Shown one piece after another: positions 3,059 through 34,858 of a stretch of 34,858 bases of DNA. The stretch's first letter is position 1, and each line of letters opens with the position of its first letter. The position numbers and the translations under genes were made by a program. Below the pieces are notes generated by a model. The model was not told where the DNA came from. It worked only from the letters and a program-made list of their open reading frames with translations, and did not search any database. The DNA lies in IMG/VR virus record IMGVR_UViG_3300010150_000068, positions 1 through 34,858 of that record. One strand, written 5' to 3'. The stretch is from a virus.

Positions 3059-3157
3059 TGGCTCTGGGGGAAGGATTCGAACCTCCACGATAAATAATTT
3101 GCTGTCATTCATCACACGAGAAACAATCGTGCGTGTCTACCATTTCACCACCCCAGA
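3059..3157 (-). tRNA. Atypical long-variable-arm tRNA, anticodon GUU (Asn?)
   Basis: A 99-base tRNA. Acceptor TCTGGGG/CCCCAGA is perfect, discriminator G, CCA encoded. The D-arm (GTG...AAATGGTAGA...CAC) looks like tRNA-Leu. The anticodon stem CACGA/TCGTG closes the seven-base loop TTGTTTC, placing GUU at 34-36 and an unusual U at 37. The variable region is 28 bases: stem GATGAAT/ATTTATC (7 bp, one G-U) around an 11-base loop, longer than usual Leu or Ser arms. T-arm GGAGG-TTCGAAT-CCTTC is normal. U1-A72, G73 and GUU are features of tRNA-Asn; the D-arm and long arm are not. It lies six bases after the synthetase-like gene on the same strand. A tRNA-Leu call is disfavoured by the anticodon and by G73. 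Confidence 0.8.
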
Positions 3158-3163
3158 TTATTC

Positions 3164-3994
3164 TTATACTTTGTTGATCTTTTCTAGTGCAGGAATCATA
3201 CGTGTTACACCTATGCCTCCGCCTACTCTTTGAAAGAAGTCAAACTCTAAAAACTTTTCTAGTTCTGCTTCTACTCTTTCCTTACCAAACAGTTTGAATA
3301 GTAACTCTGCATACTCTCCGTCTACAATACTGTGGAATGTATCACGCATCATATCAACATCACATGAACGTTCTGCTGATCCTATTGTTTCCATACCACC
3401 TAAGATAACGTCCATCTTCTTTGCAGTTTCGCCGTCATCGTTTCTAGCCATGTTCCAGAAAGGTGATGTTAGTTCAGGGAAGTTTGTAATAAGTGTTTGA
3501 CCAAACTCTTTTTCCATTGCAAGTTCGTGTTGTGCTTCCATCTCTGTATCAGCACTTAGTCCAAAGTGTTGTTGCCATTCAGCATAGGTCTTTTCTGTAA
3601 TGTTGCCAAAGCCTAAGTATTCACATAGTTCATACTCCATTGCTTTTAGATCATCTACATTGCCTGGCATCTCAAATTCAAACATTGGAAATATTATATC
3701 ATGTCTGCCTGGTATTGCATTAGGCTCTTGTCTATAGGAAGTGGAGACACAAAAAAACCCCTTACTATCGGGGCTACTTAATAATTCATGTTCTAACCAC
3801 ATCTGGCCTGTTTGCGGCAATGGCCAAGTGTTGCCTGCGTATTGGTATGTTGCTACATTGAATGGATCTTCACATGCGGCAAGTATGCTTAGTCTGTTTT
3901 GGGTATGGACTTCTAAGAATCCTTTGTCCAAAAAAAATGACCTTAAAAGGCCAATTGTGTTTGTAAATTTTTGTGGGGATATTAACTGCGTCAT
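3164..3994 (-). CDS. Class II aminoacyl-tRNA synthetase-like catalytic core (Asn/Asp type)
   Basis: 276 residues from the ATG at 3994 (GGAAAAAAAG upstream); an in-frame TTG at 4036 is less likely. Class II signatures are visible. Motif 1-like GFLEVHTQ (residues 25-32) has Gln where Pro is usual. Motif 2 is STSYRQEPN...RHDIIFP (85-103) with the FRxE-type Arg88/Glu90 and then FEFEM. GMETIGSAER (200-209) recalls AsnRS. Motif 3 is GGGIGVTRM (258-266). There is no N-terminal OB anticodon-binding domain, so this is only the catalytic fold, as in asparagine synthetase AsnA, the archaeal AsnRS paralogue, or EpmA. A tRNA gene follows six bases downstream, favouring a tRNA substrate. AsnA-type asparagine synthesis or protein modification remain alternatives. 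Genes upstream on the same strand (zinc ribbon, two membrane proteins) may share its transcript. Confidence 0.8.
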   Translation of the reverse strand: MTQLISPQKFTNTIGLLRSFFLDKGFLEVHTQNRLSILAACEDPFNVATYQYAGNTWPLPQTGQMWLEHELLSSPDSKGFFCVSTSYRQEPNAIPGRHDIIFPMFEFEMPGNVDDLKAMEYELCEYLGFGNITEKTYAEWQQHFGLSADTEMEAQHELAMEKEFGQTLITNFPELTSPFWNMARNDDGETAKKMDVILGGMETIGSAERSCDVDMMRDTFHSIVDGEYAELLFKLFGKERVEAELEKFLEFDFFQRVGGGIGVTRMIPALEKINKV

Positions 3995-4048
3995 TTTCTT
4001 TTTTTCCTTTTCATTAGTCAAAAAAAATTTGCTCAACTAGTGCCGAGC

Positions 4049-26900: not shown

Positions 26901-27206
26901 ATGAAGTGTACTAAAGGCGACTTAGCCCAAATCATATATTCAGTACGTCCTGAGAATATTGGACGAATTGTCAAATGCGTAGAGTATATTGGTAAATTCA
27001 AACAAGGAGAACAGTTTGAGTTTAGAGGTATGCCTTGCCAATGTCCTGTTACAGACCACTATTGGTGGATTGAAGCAGAAGACCTATCAAGTTTATTTGG
27101 ACCTAGCCCAAGAGCATATATTGCCGACAGTTGGTTAGAACCTTTAAAGAATCCAAATCAAAAATCTAAAGAAAAAGAAAAAATACCGGTTGACATAGCC
27201 GCATAA
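26901..27206 (+). CDS. Protein of unknown function with paired Cys
   Basis: 101 residues from the ATG at 26901; earlier in-frame ATGs lie over the divergent gene's start and are rejected. MKCTKGDLAQIIYSVRPENIG starts a small barrel-like domain, followed by GMPCQCPVTDHYWWIEAEDL with a CxC pair. The end is Lys-rich. No family recognised. It lies just before the tmRNA gene; the tmRNA promoter's -35 is inside its last codons. Confidence 0.6.
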   Translation: MKCTKGDLAQIIYSVRPENIGRIVKCVEYIGKFKQGEQFEFRGMPCQCPVTDHYWWIEAEDLSSLFGPSPRAYIADSWLEPLKNPNQKSKEKEKIPVDIAA

Positions 27207-27220
27207 TGAGTGTATAAATA
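27190..27220 (+). promoter_or_regulatory. tmRNA promoter: TTGACA-N17-TATAAATA
   Basis: TTGACA at 27190-27195, 17-base spacer, TATAAA at 27213, which is also a perfect TATAAATA late box (27213-27220). Both early (host) and late (phage) polymerase should read it. Confidence 0.8.
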
Positions 27221-27287
27221 TAGCTGTAACGTTGAAGCAATTCAAACGCTATACAGGACTCGGGGGCAGTACCCGACGCCTCCACCA
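27221..27287 (+). ncRNA. ssrA: tmRNA acceptor piece (permuted, two-piece form)
   Basis: The 3' part of the tRNA-like domain comes first, as in alphaproteobacterial permuted ssrA. The T-arm is TCGGG-GGCAGTA-CCCGA, with the loop sequence of two-piece tmRNAs. The acceptor 3' strand CGCCTCC is followed by A and an encoded CCA ending at 27287. CGCCTCC pairs with GGGGGCG at 27368, with a G-U as third pair, the alanine identity element. The exact 5' end is set by processing or the promoter start; it is not sharply defined. Confidence 0.88.
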
Positions 27288-27367
27288 TAAACACATGAGA
27301 GTAGATACACCTGCTTTTCTGTGTATAGGACAAGACCTCGAAAGGGTGCAAGTCGTGTGTTTATGAT
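27288..27367 (+). ncRNA. ssrA: Intervening segment of pre-tmRNA
   Basis: 80 bases removed in permuted tmRNAs. Its ends extend the acceptor helix: TAAACACA (27288-27295) pairs with TGTGTTTA near its 3' end. This continuous helix is strong evidence that the two pieces come from one folded precursor. Confidence 0.78.
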
Positions 27368-27518
27368 GGGGGCGAACTAGGATCGACTGGTAGTTAATAG
27401 AGTTAGTGGAGTTTCCCGGATCTAAGCACGGTTATCGCGAAGAAAACTATAGACGCAAACGAAAACTTTGCTCTTGCGGCCTAGTAATTAACTAGGTTAC
27501 GGGGTTGGCAACTTACCT
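27368..27518 (+). ncRNA. ssrA: tmRNA coding piece, tag (A)ANENFALAA
   Basis: Starts GGGGGCGAACTAGGATCGAC, the standard 5' end of tmRNA (acceptor strand plus D-loop). The resume codon is GCA at 27455 (after AGAC), followed by AAC GAA AAC TTT GCT CTT GCG GCC and stop TAG (27482-27484). The tag would be AANENFALAA with the charged Ala, ending in ALAA as needed for ClpXP/ClpAP recognition. CCTAGT/ACTAGG forms the hairpin around the stop. CTG-G-TAG near the 5' end can pair with CTA-TA-CAG in the acceptor piece. End set by the terminator that follows; pseudoknots were not traced. Confidence 0.9.
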
Positions 27519-27542
27519 GGCAACAGAAAAGTTGCGTTTTTT
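27519..27542 (+). terminator. tmRNA terminator
   Basis: GCAAC-AGAAAA-GTTGC followed by GTTTTTT. Confidence 0.88.
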
Positions 27543-27557
27543 ACTATTGGGGGCAAT

Positions 27558-27746
27558 GTGAAAGAACCAGGGCAAACAACACAAGATGCTATTAAAGATC
27601 TAAGGATGGTTATAATATCTTTAGGAATAACATTCTCAGTACTAACATTCCTTGAACCTAAAGATCCAGAGACAGTAGCTTTTTTAGTTGGCCCTCCTAG
27701 CTACATAATACTCCGTTGGTTACAGTTACAAAATATTATCTCATAG
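27558..27746 (+). CDS. Small membrane protein after tmRNA
   Basis: 62 residues from a GTG (ATTGGGGGC upstream gives a weak ribosome site; the overlapping ATG is followed at once by stop). Polar start, a span near residues 17-33 (MVIISLGITFSVLTFLEP), and a second hydrophobic part (VAFLVGPPSYIILRWLQL). Two short membrane segments with a charged loop are likely. Not recognised. Confidence 0.5.
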   Translation: MKEPGQTTQDAIKDLRMVIISLGITFSVLTFLEPKDPETVAFLVGPPSYIILRWLQLQNIIS

Positions 27747-27780
27747 ACACAGCCTATTAGACTTTGTGTTTTTTCTGTGC

Positions 27781-27813: not shown

Positions 27814-28869
27814 ATGCCACCACGTAATCATAAGAGTTGGTTAGCACAACCAAACGTAGAATCAATTAGCAGTTCAGCATATAACGATCCAGAAGTATTT
27901 GCACAAGAGCAAGAACGTATCTTTTCAAAGGTATGGGTGCCAATGTGTCATATCTCAGAGATGTATAACAAACTAGACTACCGAACAACACAGATAGCAG
28001 GTGTTAATGTTATTGCATACAACACAGGCGATGGTGTTCGAGCATATCGTAACTATGGCAGTTGGGCACCTAGTGGTACGCTAGGAGCACCTATTGTAAC
28101 TGTTGAACCACAGTTGCATTGTGAAGTAAAGCACGGAGGTATGGTATGGGTAACACTAGATCCTAATCCAACGCAAAGTGTAGAACAATGGACAGCAGGT
28201 GCATTTGATTGTATCGCTGATGCTATTGACACAGAAGAAATGGAAGTGTTTCATTATCATAAGGCAGTAATAAATACCAACTACAAGTTATGGCATGATA
28301 CTAACAGTGAATTCTATCACGACTTCATGCACTACTTTAATAGAGTAAGTGGATTCAACGATGAGTACTTCGCACGTAAAAATTTACCTTTTGATAATGG
28401 GCATGTTAACGTGTCTAGTTTTACTGTCAACTATGAGGAGTACGAGGGCTTTGAAGATAGAGGAGAGTTATCATTTCCAAACTTGCCGCCCAATCAATGG
28501 TACATGGTCGATTTGTTCCCCGGCTTCAACTTTAACCTTCGAGGCTCCGCCTACCGTAGTGATTCAGTTACTCCCCTAAGTTGTAACAAAGTTCTTATTG
28601 AGTTTAGAGGTTACGGACTACGCAAAGATACACCCAAAGAAAGACTAACACGTATCAAACATCACAACAGTATATGGGGACCGTTCGGACGTAACCTACA
28701 CGAAGACCTAATTGGTGTAGCAGGACAAGGAACAACAATGCGTGAAGGCACAGAAGCACGTAACATACTTCATGGTAGACATGAAAATGGAACTATACAT
28801 GATGAAGTAGGTATGCGTCATTACTATTCAGAATGGGGCAAGTATTTGGATGTTGACCCGTATCAGTAA
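27814..28869 (+). CDS. Ring-hydroxylating-oxygenase-like protein lacking the Rieske centre
   Basis: 351 residues. Residues 15-50 (SAYNDPEVFAQEQERIFSKV) match the lead-in of Rieske non-haem iron oxygenase alpha subunits. The Rieske ligands CxH...CxxH are absent and that part seems shortened: RAYRNYGSWAPSG runs directly into PQLHCEVKHGGMVWVTLDP, which normally comes after the cluster. The mononuclear-iron site survives: SEFYHDFMHYFN (His169 and His173; the usual spacing is one longer) and LHEDLIGVAGQ (the Asp-bearing helix). It could use another electron source or be a non-redox relative. Stand-alone gene, not near a reductase or ferredoxin. The reading frame is intact. Confidence 0.75.
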   Translation: MPPRNHKSWLAQPNVESISSSAYNDPEVFAQEQERIFSKVWVPMCHISEMYNKLDYRTTQIAGVNVIAYNTGDGVRAYRNYGSWAPSGTLGAPIVTVEPQLHCEVKHGGMVWVTLDPNPTQSVEQWTAGAFDCIADAIDTEEMEVFHYHKAVINTNYKLWHDTNSEFYHDFMHYFNRVSGFNDEYFARKNLPFDNGHVNVSSFTVNYEEYEGFEDRGELSFPNLPPNQWYMVDLFPGFNFNLRGSAYRSDSVTPLSCNKVLIEFRGYGLRKDTPKERLTRIKHHNSIWGPFGRNLHEDLIGVAGQGTTMREGTEARNILHGRHENGTIHDEVGMRHYYSEWGKYLDVDPYQ

Positions 28870-33531: not shown

Positions 33532-34134
33532 ATGAGTTTAAAAGCTGACCTTTGGTTTCCATCGATTGTATTTGCAGGTTATGTAGAATCAATTGATAGA
33601 CAATCACTAAAAAATATTGCCCTTGCATGGCAAACAAAAGAACCTAACCTTGGTGGCAATAGCAATATGAATGGTTGGCATAGTCGCAGTATTGAGAATG
33701 TAAACTTAGTTGACCCTAACTATGTGTTTGCTCTTAATACGTTTGTAAAAGAACTAGATGCACAAATAGATTACTGTCGCAAAACTATGGGACTACCTGA
33801 ATTAGAATTCCAAAACTTCTGGATTAACATTAATGGTCCAGGAGCATATCATACATTACACAATCACCAAGACGCTATGTTGAGTGGTGTATTTTATATA
33901 GACGTTCCTACAGAGAATATGGGCGACTTACAATTTTTTAGAGGCGATGATGCACAGTATTACATTCCAGATAACTTTGATGCATATAATACAATAACAA
34001 GTACAATGGCAACGTATCCTCCAAAAGACGGAATGATAGTAATCTTTCCTAGCTGGGTCAAACATCAAGTTAAATCAAACCAAAGTGACTTGCAACGGAT
34101 TGCAGTCTCTTTTAATTACGGAGTTAAGAAGTGA
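33532..34134 (+). CDS. 2OG-Fe(II) oxygenase-like protein (4)
   Basis: 200 residues. The N-terminal part WFPSIVFAGYVESIDRQSL and WHSRS, then AYHTLHNHQDAMLSGVFYI and a Pro-containing strand, FRGDDAQYY, IVIFPSWVKHQVKSNQSD and RIAVSFNYG follow the TIGR02466-type phage 2OG oxygenase. Iron ligands are HNH plus the distal VKHQV His, and the Arg before IAVSFN binds 2-oxoglutarate. It is the most canonical of four such genes. One base separates it from bS21; its stop overlaps guaC (GTGA). Confidence 0.82.
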   Translation: MSLKADLWFPSIVFAGYVESIDRQSLKNIALAWQTKEPNLGGNSNMNGWHSRSIENVNLVDPNYVFALNTFVKELDAQIDYCRKTMGLPELEFQNFWININGPGAYHTLHNHQDAMLSGVFYIDVPTENMGDLQFFRGDDAQYYIPDNFDAYNTITSTMATYPPKDGMIVIFPSWVKHQVKSNQSDLQRIAVSFNYGVKK

Positions 34135-34858
34135 GAATTGAACAAGATATTAAGTTAGACTATAAAGACGTACTGTTTAAGCCTAAGAGATCAAAATTAG
34201 AAAGCAGACGTGACGTTGACTTGACTCGAACGTTCAAGTTTCATCATGGTAATGAATGGAACGGCATACCGATCATGACAAGTAACATGGACGGCGTGGG
34301 TACATTCGAAATGGCAAAAGTAATGCAAGAACACAAAATGCTTACTATTATGAGAAAGCATTACTCTGTTGATGACTGGAAAGAACAGAGCCAAGGTGTT
34401 AAGATGAAGTACCTAAGTGTTTGTACAGGTACAGGAGTTATTTGGGATAAAGATGCAAAAGACTATGCTACTATGAAAGCAGTCTTAGAAATGTTTCCAG
34501 ACATTAAATTTATTACAGTTGATGTTGCAAATGCTTATCATGAAAACTATGCAGACTTTATTGCACGTTTACGTGATGCATATCCAGACAAAACTATTAT
34601 TGCTGGTAATGTTATTTCAGCAGAGATGACAGAAGAACTTATTATCAAAGGTGCTGACATTGTCAAGTGTGGTATTGGTCCAGGATCAGTATGTACTACA
34701 CGACTAATGACAGGTGTTGGTGTACCGCAACTATCAGGCATTATTGAATGTGCTGATGCGGCTAACGGTATTGGTGGACACATTATTGCTGATGGCGGTT
34801 GTGTGTATCCAGGAGATGTAAGTAAAGCCTTTGGAGCAGGTGCTCACTTTGTTATGCT
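34131..34858 (+). CDS. guaC: GMP reductase (5' part; cut by window edge)
   Basis: The first 242 codons, from a GTG overlapping the preceding stop. YKDVLFKPKRSKLESRRDVD and MTSNMDGVGTFEMA open the IMPDH/GMPR barrel. TVDVANAY precedes IKGADIVKCGIGPGSVCTTR with the catalytic Cys loop, then GVGVPQLSGIIECADAANGI and IADGGCVYPGDVSKAFGAG. The VGVPQLS and CADAANG features and the absence of a CBS domain between strands favour GMP reductase over IMP dehydrogenase. It converts GMP to IMP with NADPH, recycling host purines. Unusual in phages. Confidence 0.92.
   Translation, partial: MRIEQDIKLDYKDVLFKPKRSKLESRRDVDLTRTFKFHHGNEWNGIPIMTSNMDGVGTFEMAKVMQEHKMLTIMRKHYSVDDWKEQSQGVKMKYLSVCTGTGVIWDKDAKDYATMKAVLEMFPDIKFITVDVANAYHENYADFIARLRDAYPDKTIIAGNVISAEMTEELIIKGADIVKCGIGPGSVCTTRLMTGVGVPQLSGIIECADAANGIGGHIIADGGCVYPGDVSKAFGAGAHFVM

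Follow-up and report, generated by a model that had tools for sequence, protein, structure and literature searches.

The 34,858-nt viral DNA analysed here (hereafter the window; IMG/VR virus record IMGVR_UViG_3300010150_000068) very probably carries a working permuted ssrA gene of the alphaproteobacterial type, borne by a marine T4-like phage, in which the intervening sequence (IVS) serves as a helix-bounded cassette slot with contents that are exchanged. Nearly all bacteria have tmRNA, and textbooks cover its split form; the IVS, the part that is removed and is absent from the mature tmRNA, has so far been regarded as filler. The phage two-piece tmRNA is itself known, and the new part of the finding is the IVS as an exchangeable cassette, the variable part of the gene that the original prediction had overlooked. 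If marine phages use the IVS to house small genes that can be swapped, the gene for a structured non-coding RNA serves as an mRNA as well. Small phage proteins, for example in the cultured phage Melnitz, would then have been missed because annotation overlooks open reading frames (ORFs) inside a tmRNA gene, and the link between tmRNA processing and nested-gene expression would be testable in a culturable phage.

The gene was located by covariance search. The alphaproteobacterial model RF01849 matched positions 27186-27538 over its full length (model 1-355) with 119.8 bits against a cut-off of 50 (E = 2.4e-32), and the general permuted tmRNA model RF04321 matched 27226-27484 with 100.1 bits (cut-off 47). 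Both matches bear out the original prediction, which had placed a permuted two-piece tmRNA at 27190-27542 and named an Infernal search with RF01849 as its check; ARAGORN, run on the window, missed the gene. The acceptor piece (about 27226 to 27287, plus strand, as are all parts given here) was delimited by the covariance match, sequence reading and covariation. It contains the T-arm TCGGG-GGCAGTA-CCCGA (27260-27276) and the acceptor 3' strand CGCCTCC (27277-27283), followed by the discriminator A and CCA (27285-27287). Next comes the 80-nt IVS (27288-27367), delimited by comparison with the relatives L347 and L261, and then the coding piece (27368-27538, from the covariance match) with acceptor strand, D-loop region, tag and 3' hairpin. 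The coding piece starts with the 5' acceptor strand GGGGGCG (27368-27374), in which 7 of 7 positions pair, the third as G.U. The order is therefore permuted, with CCA preceding G1 at 27368 and the IVS between them. The tag reading frame (27455-27484) was read as GCA AAC GAA AAC TTT GCT CTT GCG GCC TAG, from the resume codon GCA to the stop TAG, and encodes ANENFALAA, nine codons with a small apolar C-terminus. The tag had been given as AANENFALAA; the encoded nine residues stand, but the extra A in front of them stands for the alanine with which the tRNA part is charged. A conserved 3' hairpin, GCAACTT/AAGTTGC with a ACCUGGCAACAGAA loop, is followed by a T-run (terminator; 27508-27542) and is supported by the covariance match. 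The acceptor piece, GGCAGTA T-loop, CCA, G-U third pair, GCA and terminator of the prediction were thus all read in the sequence.

A sigma70-like promoter, TTGACA N17 TATAAAT, lies at 27190-27220 on the same strand. By eye and by script, TTGACA starts at 27190 and is followed by a 17-nt spacer and TATAAATA at 27213-27220, so that the -10 element doubles as TATAAATA, the T4-type late promoter core. An early plus a late promoter had been predicted here; both motifs are present. A generic promoter scan does not list the promoter at 27190-27220, and its support is that it is conserved with fixed spacing in relatives. Taken on its own, TATAAATA shows no enrichment within the window. A TTGAC-N17-TATAAAT-like arrangement 6-7 nt before the start of the acceptor piece, which recurs as the commonest upstream arrangement in relatives (57 of 65 matched cases), would have transcription begin close to the tmRNA's first base.

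Computational comparison of relatives establishes both selection on the RNA and its intactness. The third acceptor pair (G3.U70, the alanine identity pair), present in the window tmRNA, is G.U in 215 of 219 distinct viral permuted tmRNAs parsed from fetched contigs. Across this set acceptor pair A5 varies between GC, CG and TA and pair A6 between CG, TA and GC, and T-arm pairs T1-T4 show alternative Watson-Crick pairs (four types each at T1 and T2). The detector accepted only stems with 6 or 7 of the 7 acceptor pairs; the level of pairing is inflated by this, the variety of pair types is not. Decay in relatives, named beforehand as grounds for doubt, was not seen, and with compensatory changes and a retained G.U pair among the related genes, the window tmRNA is not decayed. 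No SmpB gene was found in 12 related phage records, complete Melnitz among them, and the tmRNA therefore presumably uses host SmpB.

The window tmRNA belongs to a known phage type: a 2022 paper on phage Melnitz described marine phages with two-piece tmRNA (PMC9004378), and a strict pattern for the acceptor piece occurs in at least 120 contigs of IMG/VR. The rarity that had been claimed for phage tmRNA does not hold against these numbers: two-piece forms made up 53 of 133 distinct phage tmRNA structures, nearly all of them aquatic (PMC9004378), and a 2025 tmRNA database holds 79 phage sequences (PMC11915505). The functional ideas that accompanied the original prediction, ribosome rescue and host-protein tagging, had likewise been made already, as ribosomes kept working or host proteins tagged (PMC9004378), and the alphaproteobacterial permuted type itself is supported. 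The window gene shares with RF01849 and RF04321 the order acceptor piece, IVS, coding piece, as well as the T-loop GGCRGTA, CCA, G.U third pair, resume codon GCA and 3' hairpin with ACCUGGCAACAGAA; it differs in its IVS of 80 nt versus about 28 nt in the model consensus. Its tag has 9 codons, versus the 13-14 common among related viral genes. Melnitz ssrA (PMC9004378, MZ577097) is also a two-piece alpha-type gene of a marine T4-like phage, with an early-type promoter and no SmpB found, but it has the tag ANDNYVPVDYALAA, different neighbours and an IVS of 142 nt with a Shine-Dalgarno (SD) motif and an ORF that is unannotated in the Melnitz record. A glutamine riboswitch has been proposed for Melnitz ssrA (PMC9004378); a glnA riboswitch at the window locus was rejected, as no Rfam family other than tmRNA matched 27100-27760 up to E 5.

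Viral IVSs span about 20 to about 390 nt overall, and in aligned relatives those at the window's syntenic position measure 29-245 nt; the only yardsticks for length and content are the Rfam consensus (about 28 nt) and the paper on the 2025 database, which has 11,946 bacterial permuted tmRNAs (PMC11915505). As predicted, the ends of the intervening segment lengthen the acceptor helix. In the window, 27288-27297 folds onto 27354-27363, and this closing helix, which continues the acceptor stem, shows many compensatory changes among 212 viral IVSs; where the IVS contains an ORF, each of the 10 helix positions is paired in 80-100% of cases. Exchange of what lies inside was evident from two comparisons. 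Window and L347 share 79 of 80 IVS positions (0.99) and an acceptor piece at 0.91 identity, against 114 of 150 (0.76) in the coding piece and 0.58 upstream, and L347 has a different tag (ANDNYAPEMALAA) and unrelated flanks. The nearest relative, L261, matches the coding piece at 147 of 150 positions (0.98) and has an unrelated IVS of 33 nt (31/80 matches, 0.39). Seven further pairs of distinct tmRNAs combine an IVS identity of 0.91-0.98 with a coding-piece identity of 0.69-0.79. Judged from these alignments, IVS contents are evidently swapped between phages independently of the tmRNA body.

One family of 65-66-nt IVSs (L126, L134, L145, L155, L156 and L297) has two apparent hairpins, TGCTT...AAGCA with covarying CTG/CAG and GTG/CAC, and CAG-ACTGATAAA-CTG. 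The family looks like a conserved structured RNA; the two members checked had no Rfam match. At 17 loci, no known structured RNA was found inside other IVSs at gathering score.

Long IVSs of relatives contain protein genes. Among 73 unique viral IVSs with lengths of 110-400 nt, 52 had an ATG ORF filling at least 70% of the IVS, where dinucleotide shuffles of the IVS interior led us to expect about 3.9; the 73 were drawn from 227 unique viral IVSs, a partly redundant set for which the detector required a near-perfect acceptor stem, and the counts are thus not population frequencies. The excess held in both length classes within this range (28 versus 2.8 and 24 versus 1.1 expected). It was also seen in a first sample gathered blind to IVS content, save for Rieske and upstream-gene neighbours (26 of 38 versus 2.3 expected, with 0 of 200 simulations as high). 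IVSs of 80-110 nt showed a modest excess (14 versus 6.1 expected), and those under 80 nt (the 50-80-nt class) none. Inspection suggests some 20 or more ORF families. In 11 multi-member families dN/dS lay mostly between 0.04 and 0.4; the few values above this, reaching 0.76, came from sequence pairs that were either divergent or very close. The IVS ORFs of relatives are under purifying selection. SD-like motifs (GGAG, GAGG, AGGA, GGGA or AAGG) lie upstream of 43 of 68 IVS ORFs.

Some of these ORFs have free-standing homologues. An ORF of 77 aa is nested in the IVS of 15 relatives and free-standing in 5 distant contigs, and the nested ORF of L166, L333, L336 and L113 has a 67%-identical homologue that is a separate gene ending just before Melnitz ssrA. 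Melnitz, a cultured phage with four sequenced isolates, itself has GGAG and an ORF, MFKWLSKTRLVVITRDYF... (also written MFKWLSKTRLVV...), inside the IVS of its annotated SsrA gene; with four Melnitz isolates and many metagenomes, assembly artefacts are an unlikely source of the IVS ORFs. In L445-L447, two overlapping ORFs share one 388-nt IVS. Among isolate phages no homologues of the 77-aa and MNWDWHW ORFs were found, and none of ten IVS proteins compared with Pfam reached the cut-off, one giving a borderline match to the membrane family DUF2061. The stops of IVS ORFs cluster at -12, -7 and -1 relative to the first base of the coding piece, in the closing helix region, and further at +13 and +42, inside the tmRNA, where the +13 stop is the conserved UAG of GAAAUAGGAUCGAC. 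Slightly fewer than half of the ORFs pass the expected RNase P cut, with stops mostly at +13 or +42. The permuted viral tmRNAs of L333, L336 and L320, which contain IVS ORFs, have very short apparent tags (ANYSLAA).

Searches of the open-licence literature gave no earlier description of a tmRNA IVS with protein genes inside it. Permuted tmRNAs with unusual IVSs have been described, one holding a tRNA-Ala gene and one a repetitive element (PMC11915505). These are likewise permuted with added IVS content, but protein genes are unmentioned there, whereas the viral relatives carry recurring, swapping small genes. Group I introns with homing-endonuclease genes in the tmRNA T-loop (PMC11915505) also place a protein gene inside a tmRNA gene; they differ in being T-loop introns, whereas the IVS is processed out without splicing and its small ORFs mostly lack family matches.

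The window's own IVS contains a 23-codon ORF, MRVDTPAFLCIGQDLERVQVVCL (27295-27366, plus strand), without an SD motif. Its ATG at +7 and stop at -1 are placed as in the conserved ORFs of L354/L077 and L366/L394. Exact and degenerate-codon scans of the collection recovered homologues only in L138 and L347, both without codon variation, and we rejected the ORF as a proven gene. It is not distinguishable from chance, and that it is coding is possible but rather doubtful. Nested coding is thus a result for the relatives and not for the window, because the window ORF is not above chance and lacks an SD motif. The interior of the window IVS alone has a folding z of -0.63, and -2.3 with the helix ends; no Rfam family matched it.

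Three other explanations were weighed. The tmRNA might be a functionless copy of a host gene, decayed or a mere passenger, that was acquired accidentally, for instance when a prophage excised imprecisely. Phages can indeed carry ssrA fragments (PMC9004378) and some syntenic relatives lack the tmRNA, but here all parts are intact, promoter spacing is conserved and the phage is T4-like, with no integrase seen among the scanned window proteins; the compensatory changes and near-invariant G.U over 219 distinct genes largely refute a passenger origin, which we consider highly improbable. Neutral drift of a spacer, with long ORFs as chance or annotation noise, is very unlikely to account for the variation in IVS size. 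It fits the lack of ORF excess under 80 nt and the unexceptional stability of the window IVS interior, but not the more than tenfold ORF excess at 110 nt and above, the purifying selection, free-standing homologues and SD motifs, or the near-identical IVSs within divergent tmRNA bodies.

An unlikely, though somewhat more credible, explanation is that the inserts are mobile elements or ribozyme-like RNAs with the ORFs as by-products. Near-identical 80-nt inserts in different tmRNAs, exchange independent of the tmRNA body and the many 60-110-nt inserts that appear folded within the closing helix are all consistent with it. Against it, no Rfam family except tmRNA overlaps the inserts, the many unrelated ORF families do not form a single element, and recombination in the conserved tmRNA flanks explains the exchange.

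We therefore favour a working ssrA with an exchangeable IVS cassette, for which we infer processing, SmpB use, timing, translation of IVS genes and a benefit in infection as follows. The gene's own promoter would drive transcription from about the first base of the acceptor piece, and host tRNA-processing enzymes would excise the IVS by the established permuted-tmRNA pathway, leaving two pieces held together via the acceptor helix. G3.U70 would direct alanine charging, and the tmRNA with host SmpB would rescue stalled ribosomes, adding (A)ANENFALAA for proteolysis. The conserved, covarying helix bounds the slot. Its contents are a short loop, an insert of 60-110 nt with no clear coding (the window's case), or one or two complete small protein genes, for which either the precursor or the released IVS would serve as the message.

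A further proposal, which we hold only tentatively, is that phage permuted ssrA is a dual-function RNA with an IVS slot for small protein genes controlled by tmRNA maturation, of which the window IVS may encode a 23-aa member. IVS ORFs that end at +13 or +42 span the site where RNase P is expected to cut, and maturation would thus sever them from their stop codon. They would then become non-stop messages, substrates of the very tmRNA under maturation, and the full small protein would be made only while the tmRNA is unprocessed. The stop positions suggest that a built-in feedback of this sort couples expression of the nested genes to tmRNA maturation.

The genome around the tmRNA is that of a phage. 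Among the proteins encoded in the window, the ribonucleotide reductase subunits NrdA/B, an endolysin-like PAAR protein and a DUF6267 protein are of T4-like type; 2OG-Fe(II) oxygenases are also present. Its nearest isolate relatives are T4-like marine phages: the Pelagibacter phages Mosig and HTVC008M, cyanophages and Melnitz. Upstream lies a syntenic gene of unknown function with homologues in related contigs (phrog_2529; 26901-27206, plus strand), and the tmRNA follows its homologue in 52 of the 65 contigs that extend far enough to show it; L302 and L335 also have it there, missed by the pattern (at least 2 extra). At the same locus in L282, L284, L286, L287 and L331 no tmRNA was found, which makes the tmRNA accessory. 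Downstream, a Rieske-type oxygenase (27814-28869, plus strand) is 71% identical to a methanesulfonate monooxygenase-like gene of SAR116 phage HMO-2011. Given the T4-like marine relatives and this SAR116-phage-like gene, the host is probably a marine alphaproteobacterium. The permuted form, originally read as a host marker, is a weak one, because Melnitz carries an alpha-type tmRNA and infects a gammaproteobacterial (OM43) host (PMC9004378).

The ANENFALAA coding pattern occurred in 62 viral contigs versus 2 bacterial MAGs, neither alphaproteobacterial, which points to a tag specific to a phage lineage. Assigning the host by tag match was rejected, as a scan of the genome collection found the pattern in no alphaproteobacterial genome. 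Gene capture is plausible; a plasmid search using the acceptor piece gave no match. Other viral contigs (L127, L136 and L172) have a one-piece-type tmRNA with the identical tag, adjoining a tRNA, which suggests tag convergence. Permuted tmRNAs are present but unannotated in the isolate phages RcXuper, DSS3P8, RcSimone-Hastad, Cp1R7A-A1 and vB_EliS-L02 (L342-L346), and in RcRudolph (L341) the region is annotated as a hypothetical CDS.

Elsewhere in the window, 3059-4036 (minus strand) encodes an AsnRS/AspRS-like catalytic core of 290 aa that lacks an anticodon-binding domain. Directly after it comes a tRNA whose variable arm is long. ARAGORN called this tRNA Glu(CTC), whereas its fold has a 7-nt anticodon loop UUGUUUC, giving GUU (Asn). 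The two may form a phage-owned synthetase/tRNA pair. A synthetase-like gene and a tRNA (tRNA-Asn GTT) are also adjacent in L458, and Prochlorococcus phage P-SSM7 has a 'tRNA ligase' and tRNA-Asn side by side. The window further contains metabolic genes for a GMP reductase-like protein (34131-34856), AdoMet decarboxylase (1369-1740), a class 3 lipase (1803-2597) and a PRPP synthetase fragment (2-310).
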